Positions 29,835 to 33,241 of a stretch of 64,000 nucleotides of DNA are shown in pieces. The notes beneath the pieces are model-generated. The model was not told the DNA's origin. It saw nothing but the letters and a program-made list of their open reading frames with translations, and made no database searches. Made by a program: the position numbers and the translations under genes. Source of the DNA: Prochlorococcus sp. AG-363-P01 (GTDB lineage: Bacteria > Cyanobacteriota > Cyanobacteriia > PCC-6307 > Cyanobiaceae). Every line of letters starts with the position of its first letter. Within the stretch, counting starts at the first letter, position 1. The DNA is taken from assembly GCA_003278225.1 (NCBI GenBank), contig QCGC01000006.1, positions 20,333-84,332 on the forward strand. The letters are read 5' to 3'.

Positions 29835-30617
29835 TTAAATCCATGGATCTTCATCATAATTAGAGTTTAAATTTTCTTTTTCAGAATATTGGATTTGATC
29901 CCTAAAGTCTAGTTCATTAATACGTTGTGACTGATTAGATTCATCAGGCCAATTATCCAATGGGTCAGCATCATAATTTATCCTTGGTGATCTATAAGTT
30001 CTTTCTTCCCAAGGTGGTTCTTCCAACCATCCTTCTAAACGACCACTAGCTTCTTGAGTAATTTCTTGAATTTGAGATCGCCAATTTCGCGAACGTCGCA
30101 AAAAATCTTGTCTTAAACTTGCTCTAGCCAAAGGCAATTCTTCTAAGGAAGTCACCCCAACTGAAACCATACCAGGTTGTTGATCTTGAATACGATCAAT
30201 AGCTAATAGCCATCTACTTGTTCCTGGGAGCCTTGGATCACTTCTAGAAATTAGATATTTAATTATTTGACCTGTTATTGGTTCGAAAATAAAATCAACT
30301 AAGAAGCCAATCTTATCTCCATTTAAATTTAAAATATCAGAATCTAATAATGTTGGTAATCTATTTAAAGTGATCTGATCTGTAGAAAAAAATTTACCTT
30401 TTACATATATAAAATCACTACCAATTCCTTTTAATTGGTCTAACTTCCAAACAGCTCTTGTTAATTTAAAAGATGAAGGTTTAGTTGACCAGCCTAATAA
30501 ACGATGTACAGGTGGATGCATCCAAGCACATAGTCCAGATCCATGGTCTAAACCACTATCACATTTGACATGATGCTTTAAAAAATCACTTAATAAATAT
30601 TTTGAAGGTAAAGTCAA
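29835..30617 (-). CDS. PRC-barrel domain-containing protein
   Basis: Two PRC-barrel-like segments (LPTLLDSDILNLNGDKIGFLVDFIFEPITGQIIKYLIS); located between dnaN and purL. Confidence 0.78.
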   Translation of the reverse strand: MTLPSKYLLSDFLKHHVKCDSGLDHGSGLCAWMHPPVHRLLGWSTKPSSFKLTRAVWKLDQLKGIGSDFIYVKGKFFSTDQITLNRLPTLLDSDILNLNGDKIGFLVDFIFEPITGQIIKYLISRSDPRLPGTSRWLLAIDRIQDQQPGMVSVGVTSLEELPLARASLRQDFLRRSRNWRSQIQEITQEASGRLEGWLEEPPWEERTYRSPRINYDADPLDNWPDESNQSQRINELDFRDQIQYSEKENLNSNYDEDPWI

Positions 30618-31777
30618 TTTTCTGAACGTACTTGGACAGGCATAACTAAATAAATAAAGCCAAGATTATTATCCTTTGGTAAAAAAACAGCTGGCGTAGT
30701 AGAAGAATTACAACATAAACTAATTTCATCTGAATCAATAGCTTTTAAACCATCTAATAAATAACGAACATTAAATGCTATTTGAATATCATCAGAATCA
30801 AATTTAGCTGATATAGATTCAGAGCCACTACCAACATCTTGAGCATCTGCACTAATAAAAACTTCTTGAGTAGAAATATTTGTATTTATTTTAATTACAT
30901 TATTATGTTGATCAGCTAAAACCGCTATTCTTTCAAGTGCTGAAATAAAAATTCGCCTATTTAAAAGTATTGATTTAGAAAAATTATCTGGAATTAATTG
31001 ATCATAATTTGGATATGTTCCATCTAAAGTTCTACTGGTAACAACTTGATTAGCAGCTAGAAAAACAACTTGGCCTTTTTCACAAAATAATGTAATAAGG
31101 TCATCACCTTTCCAAGCTGATATTAACCTTTCAACTTCTTTTAAAGAACGAGAAGGAAGTGTGACATTAAAAAATTCTTGTTGGTTTAAATTTAAATCAT
31201 CATCATTTTTAATTGCATTTTTTATATTTAAAACTGCTAAACGATGCCCATCTGTAGCGGCACTTTTTAAATCATTATCACTGAAGTTCAAATGAACACC
31301 TGTTAATAGTTGTTTGGCTTCATCAGTACTACTAGCAAAAAGTGTTGCACGTAAAGATTGAACTAAAGATTGAGCATCGACTTTAAATGATCTACCATTT
31401 TCAACCAAAGGTAATTCTGGAAATTCATCAGCAGACATTCCTCGCATCTGATAACTACCACCCTTACTCGTAAGTTCTATTTGTTCGCTGATTCCATCAA
31501 AAAATATTGAAATAGGTGAGTCAGTAGATAATTTGGCTACTATCTCACAAAATAATTTGGAAGGTAAGGTAATAGCACCACTTTTTTCAACAGAAGCTGA
31601 AAAAGATGTTTGAATCCCTAAATTAAGATCGAAGCCTGTAAGGCTTAATCGATTCGTACCTTCATCAGCTGTTAATAAAACATTTGCCAATACAGGGTGA
31701 GTCGGACGCGATGCTACAGCTCTACTCACAAGTTGAAGAGCTGTATTGAGTTCTGATTGTGAGCAGACTAGTTTCAT
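30614..31777 (-). CDS. dnaN: DNA polymerase III subunit beta (sliding clamp)
   Basis: MKLVCSQSELNTALQLVSRAVASRPTHPVLANVLL; C-terminal YLVMPVQVRSEN. Confidence 0.97.
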   Translation of the reverse strand: MKLVCSQSELNTALQLVSRAVASRPTHPVLANVLLTADEGTNRLSLTGFDLNLGIQTSFSASVEKSGAITLPSKLFCEIVAKLSTDSPISIFFDGISEQIELTSKGGSYQMRGMSADEFPELPLVENGRSFKVDAQSLVQSLRATLFASSTDEAKQLLTGVHLNFSDNDLKSAATDGHRLAVLNIKNAIKNDDDLNLNQQEFFNVTLPSRSLKEVERLISAWKGDDLITLFCEKGQVVFLAANQVVTSRTLDGTYPNYDQLIPDNFSKSILLNRRIFISALERIAVLADQHNNVIKINTNISTQEVFISADAQDVGSGSESISAKFDSDDIQIAFNVRYLLDGLKAIDSDEISLCCNSSTTPAVFLPKDNNLGFIYLVMPVQVRSEN

Positions 31778-32164
31778 CTAGTCAACCTAACGGCTAATTG
31801 AAGAAAGAGTAGACCGAGATTTTCATAAGAACTATAAAAGTGCAATATTTTTTCAGATAATTTCTTTTTACTGTCTTTTTTCAATTTTAAATAAAAAAAA
31901 ATAAAATTAGTAGTAGTAGAGCCTGAGGATTTTATGGAAATTGTCAATAATCCTGATTACGACACGAAAAATTTTATTTTTTCTTGTGGAAAGAAATTAA
32001 AAAAAGTGGAAAACTTAGGGGTTTTTTTGAATTAAAAAAAAATCCCCTAAAAATTAAATATATCTTTGTAAGTTTTCTTGAGTTTTCCCCAGCAAAATTT
32101 CTATTAAAAGATCTTTTTTCCCGAGCCAGTAATTTATTTGGCCGTGAATAGTTTGTTACTAATC
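31778..32164. other. Candidate chromosomal replication origin (oriC)
   Basis: Non-coding, strongly AT-rich gap next to dnaN; DnaA-box-like 9-mers at 31933-31941 (ATTTCCATA, - strand), 31985-31993 (CTTTCCACA, -), 32005-32013 (TTTTCCACT, -), 32083-32091 (TTTTCCCCA, +); (TAG)4 at 31908-31919; AT tract 31871-31907; hairpin 32015-32050. Confidence 0.7.
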
Positions 32165-33241
32165 TTAAAATCCCATTTTATTAGCAACCGTTTTTATATT
32201 TGGATTTACTCCAGAGTAAAAAACTGCGTCATTATTTTTGATTGCACAATCAGGATCTTTTAGTCCATTTCCAGTTAAGACACATACTATTGTTGATTTA
32301 TTTGGAACTTCATTCTGACGTTTTAATAGTCCAGCAACAGAAGCAGCACTGGCTGGCTCACAGAAAATTCCTTCTTCTTTTCCTAATAAATTATATGCAT
32401 TAATTATTTCTGCATCTGTAACATCTAAAAAAGAACCGTTGCTTTTTTCTTTTGCTATTACTGCTTTTTTTCTATTTACTGGGTTGCCAATTCTAATAGC
32501 AGTAGCAATTGTTTGAGGATTATCTACGTTTTTTCCTAAAACTAAAGGAGCTGATCCACTTGCTTGAAAACCCATCATTTTAGGTAATTTATTAGATTTT
32601 TTTGCTTCAAAAAATTCTTGAAAACCCATCCAATAGGCACTAATATTTCCTGCATTTCCCATTGGAATACATAACCAATCGGGTGATTCTCCTAAAGCTT
32701 CAATAATTTCAAAGGCCGCGGTTTTTTGTCCTTGTAGACGAAAAGGATTAACAGAATTTACCAACTTCACTGGGTAATTTAATGCCATTTCTTGAACAAT
32801 ATCTAGAGCATCATCGAAATTTCCTTTGATTGCTATTATTTCGGCTCCATAAACGAGTGCTTGGGCTAATTTTCCTTGTGCTACGTATCCATCAGGTATT
32901 AAGACAAAAGCCCGCATTCCAGCTCTACGAGCATAAGCAGCGGCTGAGGCTGAAGTATTTCCTGTACTTGCACAAATAACTGCTTTACAGCCGTCTTCTT
33001 TCGCTTTGCTAATAGCCATTGTCATTCCTCTATCTTTGAATGAGCCAGTAGGGTTTAAACCATCGTATTTTGCGTAAACTTTTACACCTTTACCTATACG
33101 TTGACTGATAGATTTTATTGGTATTAAAGGTGTACCTCCTTCTTGAAGGGTAATCACAGGTGTTTTTGCTGTGACGGGTAGCCAATCTTTATAAACCTCT
33201 ATTAATCCTGGCCAGCCTGATTTAGTTGAGCTGGAGGTCAT
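32165..33241 (-). CDS. thrC: Threonine synthase
   Basis: [29 protein letters not shown] (PLP lysine), [17 protein letters not shown]. Confidence 0.96.

Follow-up and report, generated by a model that had tools for sequence, protein, structure and literature searches.

A probable chromosome origin with a basal unwinding system upstream of dnaN in Prochlorococcus, and A/C exchange at DnaA-trio centres in its GC-rich relatives

Introduction

In the chromosome origin oriC of Bacillus subtilis, the basal unwinding system (BUS) consists of tandem, co-oriented DnaA boxes, a short spacer, an array of 3'-GAT-5' DnaA-trios and an A/T tract (EMBO J 2019, PMC6669920; Pelliciari 2023, PMC10721633). Boxes and trios are required for replication in vivo in B. 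subtilis and in H. pylori. A BUS was predicted in 1755 of 2070 species, and unwinding of the S. elongatus BUS by its cognate DnaA has been reconstituted in vitro (Pelliciari 2021, PMC8287927). Thus, the suggestion in the initial annotation of the locus reported here that DnaA-trios are undescribed in cyanobacteria is wrong, and the element cannot be claimed as novel on this ground.

Two conjectures accompany the 2021 work, i.e. its authors suspected that trios without the middle A exist, and they expected that DnaA-independent bacteria have no trios (PMC8287927). On the first point, experiments in B. subtilis revealed that C, unlike G or T, replaces the central A well in vitro and that in vivo cells with a central C grow faster and show more initiation than cells with G or T; this tolerance works via the cytosine amino group and Asn187 (Pelliciari 2023, PMC10721633). 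In the open-access papers on DnaA-trios that we consulted, we found no test of trios that lack the middle A or of trio loss with DnaA independence.

As for cyanobacteria, work from 2016, as relayed in a 2020 paper, indicates that DnaA is not needed for replication in Nostoc PCC 7120 and Synechocystis 6803 but is required in S. elongatus; dnaA is dispensable in Nostocaceae. Cyanobacterial oriC regions with TTTTCCACA boxes have been placed beside dnaN (Huang 2015, PMC4674748; DoriC 10, PMC6323995), and the locus analysed here shares this place and the box motif. The accessible sections of these two sources describe boxes, but the tandem pair, the spacer and the trio array of the present group do not appear in them; DoriC is said there to store predicted trio-like strings for each record (PMC6323995).

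Results

The DNA analysed here, referred to as the window, is a stretch of 64,000 nt from Prochlorococcus sp. AG-363-P01 (GCA_003278225.1, contig QCGC01000006.1, positions 20,333-84,332, plus strand). The assembly of this genome is 65% complete, and 1.27 Mb of it were searched. The putative origin is bordered by dnaN (30614-31777, minus strand; DNA polymerase III beta subunit, TIGR00663) and by thrC (32165-33241, minus strand; threonine synthase, TIGR00260). Read on the minus strand, the tandem pair of the distal DnaA box 1 (ATTTCCATA, 31933-31941) and the proximal, degenerate DnaA box 2 (AAATCCTCA, 31924-31932) is followed by the GC-containing spacer GGCT (31920-31923), which was delimited from the sequence and the aligned relatives. 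Then come four DnaA-trios (CTACTACTACTA, 31908-31919), in which four CTA units correspond to four 3'-GAT-5' units on the bound plus strand, and an A/T tract (ATTTTATTTTTTTTTATTTAAAATTG, 31882-31907). The latter is positioned relative to the trios as in described BUS and presumably serves as the region of unwinding and helicase entry; the dnaN ATG lies 142 nt past the trio start. Farther upstream are DnaA-box-like sites with one mismatch each, CTTTCCACA (31985-31993) and TTTTCCACT (32005-32013) on the minus strand and TTTTCCCCA (32083-32091) on the plus strand.

All strings listed in the initial annotation, from TTTTCCACT (32013-32005) through ATTTTATTTTTTTTTATTTAAAATTG (31907-31882), were found on the minus strand where it had placed them. 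The 13-nt stretch AAATCCTCAGGCT (31932-31920) had been taken for a GC spacer; its coordinates are correct, but comparison with relatives revealed that it consists of box 2 and the 4-nt GGCT. Similarly, the claim that the boxes share one orientation holds for TTTTCCACT, CTTTCCACA and ATTTCCATA, but not for the additional, inverted site TTTTCCCCA. As judged by eye and without quantification, a string resembling TGGGGAAAA, which may be compared with this inverted site, is seen again in many relatives.

Two observations concern the flanks of the element. A hairpin (TAGGGGATTTTTTT...AAAAAAACCCCTA, 32014-32051, minus strand; -12.8 kcal/mol, z -2.0) separates thrC from the first upstream box and is followed by TTTTCC; it is probably the thrC terminator, although it adjoins the DnaA-box cluster. 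In the interval between the trios and dnaN (31777-31860, minus strand), the pattern TTGCRC...TRTGRAA is common to many relatives. Its Cyanobium version reads CCTGTGGAAGC, i.e. an inverted DnaA-box-like site that overlaps a promoter-like stretch; judging from the sequence, DnaA might possibly control dnaN through a site of this type.

The published BUS rule asks for a better box with at most two mismatches and, optionally, a second one with at most four, a trio start within 16 nt and at least three NAN trios. Relative to the cyanobacterial motif TTTTCCACA, box 1 has two mismatches and box 2 has four (box 1 has three if scored against TTATCCACA instead). The first trio begins 13 bp from box 1, with box 2 and GGCT in between, compared to a limit of 16 bp and a most frequent distance of 10-13 bp, and all four trios have the preferred sequence 3'-GAT-5' among the permitted 3'-NAN-5' sequences. 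As in a BUS at an origin, the element adjoins dnaN, where the skew flips in a complete congener, and the cognate DnaA has the ssDNA-binding ISM, the base-contact residues and the arginine finger.

Individual boxes are common in the window, with 29 matches to TTTTCCACA at up to one mismatch in 64 kb vs 33 expected; three such matches inside 107 bp, by comparison, form a cluster for which 0.05 is expected (P about 2e-5). The trio array occurs once in the 1.27 Mb of the source genome and once in the window, where 0.01 occurrences are expected. As a perfect trinucleotide repeat within an A/T-rich spacer, the array could be a microsatellite generated by slippage or a product of chance. This low expectation argues against that explanation, and so do the single copy per genome, the phase and copy number that are constant across the class, and the excess of substitutions over length changes; conservation in itself already contradicts it, and we regard it as extremely improbable. 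With a model of the core sequence, the source genome has one strong site (41.6 bits). The runner-up, at 14.9 bits on contig C23, was considered as a second origin and rejected, as it has neither DnaA boxes nor dnaN.

GC skew was compared between the window and 20 sampled stretches of the complete congener G052. In G052, where dnaN is located at 1.325 Mb, the sampled skew is -0.125 on one side of the gene (1.29-1.31 Mb) and +0.064 on the other (1.34-1.36 Mb). At the record start, where dnaA is located more than 0.6 Mb from dnaN along the circle, the skew is positive, and it is mostly positive before it, the exception being a single AT-rich sample at 1.84 Mb. A skew minimum elsewhere had been named in advance as evidence against an origin at this site; in the complete congener, the sign flips at dnaN. 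In the window, the cumulative skew reaches its minimum about 3-4 kb away, where gene orientation changes, and therefore the window by itself places the origin only roughly; the skew at four-fold sites in the window has no clean minimum at the site.

DnaA of the source genome (472 aa; TIGR00362) is encoded elsewhere than the oriC locus, and its closest match among solved structures is 8btg, the B. subtilis BUS complex (E 2.5e-124). In B. subtilis numbering, the protein retains E183, N187, I190, I193, R202, K222, E223 and E228 and has D in place of N196. Neither these base-contact residues nor the arginine finger varies among the 30 family DnaA proteins examined. The presence of DnaA with an intact pocket also bears on the idea that the site is a relic in a lineage that is DnaA-independent like Synechocystis or Nostoc, as the degeneracy of the boxes relative to the class consensus might suggest. 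Given this protein, the skew flip at dnaN in the congener and the fact that the known DnaA-independent lineages lack trios whereas all four are perfect here, a relic is very unlikely.

Overall, the locus shares with the B. subtilis BUS the tandem co-oriented boxes, the short spacer, the 3'-GAT-5' trios, the A/T tract and the identity of the DnaA residues in contact with bases; it differs in its degenerate boxes, in the location of oriC at dnaN and far from dnaA, and in the D for N196. With the S. elongatus BUS as described (PMC8287927), it has in common cyanobacterial DnaA-trios and DnaA boxes, a likeness drawn from that description; the window represents another lineage, in which the boxes have decayed.

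To analyse the picocyanobacterial family, we collected dnaN-upstream regions from named genomes and from a genome search and placed 158 unique regions using a matrix of the boxes, the spacer and the first two trio bases, with trios 2-4 ignored; one of these loci has a truncated upstream region and was placed by its CTA string. All 158 regions align without gaps. The offset between box 1 and the trios is constant, while the distance from the trios to the dnaN ATG varies between 118 and 198 nt. Boxes, spacer and CTA-array spacing are, therefore, conserved in close relatives, the absence of which would have spoken against the proposed origin. Trios 1-3 of the 59 low-GC loci have A at every centre (177/177). 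In a large low-GC Prochlorococcus group (L042, L046-L065), the box pair reads TTAACCACA-GAAACCACA and the A-rich AGAA stands in for the GC spacer, with perfect CTA trios. A picocyanobacterial dnaN locus (L021) is also present in a record titled 'Bifidobacterium breve' MAG (CALPNT020000155.1), the title of which is apparently mislabelled.

Unlike B. subtilis, the GC-rich relatives of the window have C in the middle of trios. On the bound strand of 99 such loci, the centre is A in 235 cases, C in 151, T in 8 and G in 2; the first base is G in 381 of 396 trios, and the third is T (240), C (143), A (12) or G (1). The replacement of A by C concerns trios 2-4, as the centre of trio 1 is A in 155 of 158 family loci, a figure that is mildly favoured because the first two bases of this trio were in the placement matrix. 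By parsimony on the dnaN tree, exchanges between A and C account for about 44 (43.7) of about 50 centre changes (~87%), compared to 0.8 for A>G and 1.6 for A>T. In the A/T tract and the upstream flank, they make up 14% of the changes (Fisher p 7e-26 and 4e-31, which are indicative only because parsimony counts are not fully independent). Outside the family, A in trio 4 is replaced by C in 13 and by G in 2 of the listed pattern matches (hand count). The definition (.A.){3,} in the 2021 search program, with its central A, fits the four trios of the window but not the arrays of the GC-rich relatives.

Loci with a higher dnaN GC3 have more C-centred trios (Spearman 0.79), as would be expected if A gave way to C at the centres through mutation under GC pressure and not through selection for a base with an amino group. 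GC pressure, however, predicts A>G at least as often as A>C, and at 85 four-fold dnaN sites A is replaced least often by C (226 changes vs 331 to G and 631 to T). This and the low share of A/C exchange in the flanks relative to the centres make GC pressure an unlikely explanation. We also considered homogenisation of CGA units by slippage as a sufficient cause and rejected it, as trios 2, 3 and 4 are usually unlike within one array. Among the 30 family DnaA proteins, no pocket changes accompanying C-centred trios were found. The natural A/C pattern matches the amino-group rule of B. subtilis, and from the sequences it is likely that this A/C rule applies in the relatives. In GC-rich relatives, the array would drift to 3'-G[A/C][T/C]-5', and the DnaA pocket can presumably read this form without having changed, as cytosine also carries an amino group.

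A change from A to C on the bound strand is equally a change from T to G on the other strand, and the sequence alone therefore leaves undecided on which strand selection acts. Moreover, the element precedes dnaN in sense orientation, and the trios of B. subtilis face a DnaD element on the opposite strand. The CTA array could, accordingly, be kept for a role other than that of trios, i.e. as a helicase-loader signal on the opposite strand, as a dnaN leader or promoter element or as a site for a nucleoid protein. Against such a role, the spacing of the array is fixed to the tandem DnaA boxes and not to the variable dnaN start, the first base and the centre of the units are constrained as the base-capture model demands, and the array is undetected where dnaA is absent; thus, we consider a role of this kind quite unlikely and retain the reading of the array as DnaA-trios.

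For the cyanobacterial class, we searched with a sequence-only model of the 56-nt core trained on one family. Strong sites were found in most cyanobacterial families, and in the top 30 class loci (L246-L275) the retrieved stretch has dnaN downstream in 29 cases. Across the class, the consensus reads TTTTCCACA-[GAT]TTTCCACA-G[GC]CC-CTACTACTACT[AG]-A/T tract, in which [GAT]TTTCCACA is at the position of box 2. A pattern with free trio centres matched 148 of 390 class genomes, at a single site each, and the reversed pattern used as a control matched 0 of 390. This class-wide consensus identifies the copy in the window as an old element with decayed boxes and still perfect trios.

Among class genomes that are at least 90% complete, 239 of 335 have a model match at E <= 1e-3 (hand count). 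Thirteen near-complete genomes in five families have no recognisable dnaA (G703 and G723 in f31; G535 in f35; G695 in f42; G529, G705 and G711 in f32; G541, G663, G681, G701, G707 and G725 in f36). None of the 13 has a BUS model match, i.e. all are among the 96 unmatched genomes, although with a model trained on one family a BUS that is not detected is not thereby proven absent. By chance, this coincidence is expected at about 5e-8, uncorrected for relatedness. Inspection of the dnaN-upstream regions in 11 of the 13 revealed neither a CTA array nor an exact TTTTCCACA box, and 11 named genomes of the Nostocaceae group gave no convincing model match (best 19.1 bits). Most BUS-less genomes keep dnaA, and the link between BUS and dnaA is, therefore, one-way. 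In Nostocaceae and other families (L286-L299), tandem clusters of exact TTTTCCACA lie upstream of dnaN without a trio array, some with GTACAATAGTAC at the trio position.

Discussion

Based on the phase, spacing and position of the element, its conservation, the skew in a congener and a DnaA with the residues for trio contact, the original reading of the locus as oriC with a BUS is upheld, and on these sequence-based grounds the dnaN-thrC element is very probably the chromosome origin with a canonical BUS. In the mechanism that we propose, DnaA would bind the tandem pair (31924-31941) via domain IV, and the oligomer would then extend across the 4-nt spacer onto the plus strand. There, G and A, the first two bases of each 3'-GAT-5' trio, would be captured by neighbouring protomers from one trio to the next, and this capture would open the adjacent A/T tract for helicase loading. 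By analogy with the B. subtilis mechanism and with the unwinding of the cognate BUS by S. elongatus DnaA, we infer that the same mechanism would operate in the source organism.

The oriC element itself is expected in kind, and the comparison among relatives bears on the two published conjectures. We suggest that the natural trio code is 3'-G[A/C][T/C]-5' and not 3'-GAT-5'. In this model, the central A has repeatedly been replaced by C under selection in GC-rich picocyanobacteria while the DnaA pocket stayed unchanged, and trios are lost upon DnaA independence. We consider this model probable.

Our observations add evolutionary evidence to two statements that were hitherto a laboratory result or a conjecture, i.e. 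the A/C centres and the loss of trios. Because trio centres in GC-rich relatives are almost exclusively A or C, origin searches that require NAN will miss or mis-score GC-rich origins. And because trios are not found in lineages without dnaA, the presence of a BUS may be used as a testable predictor of DnaA dependence in cyanobacteria.
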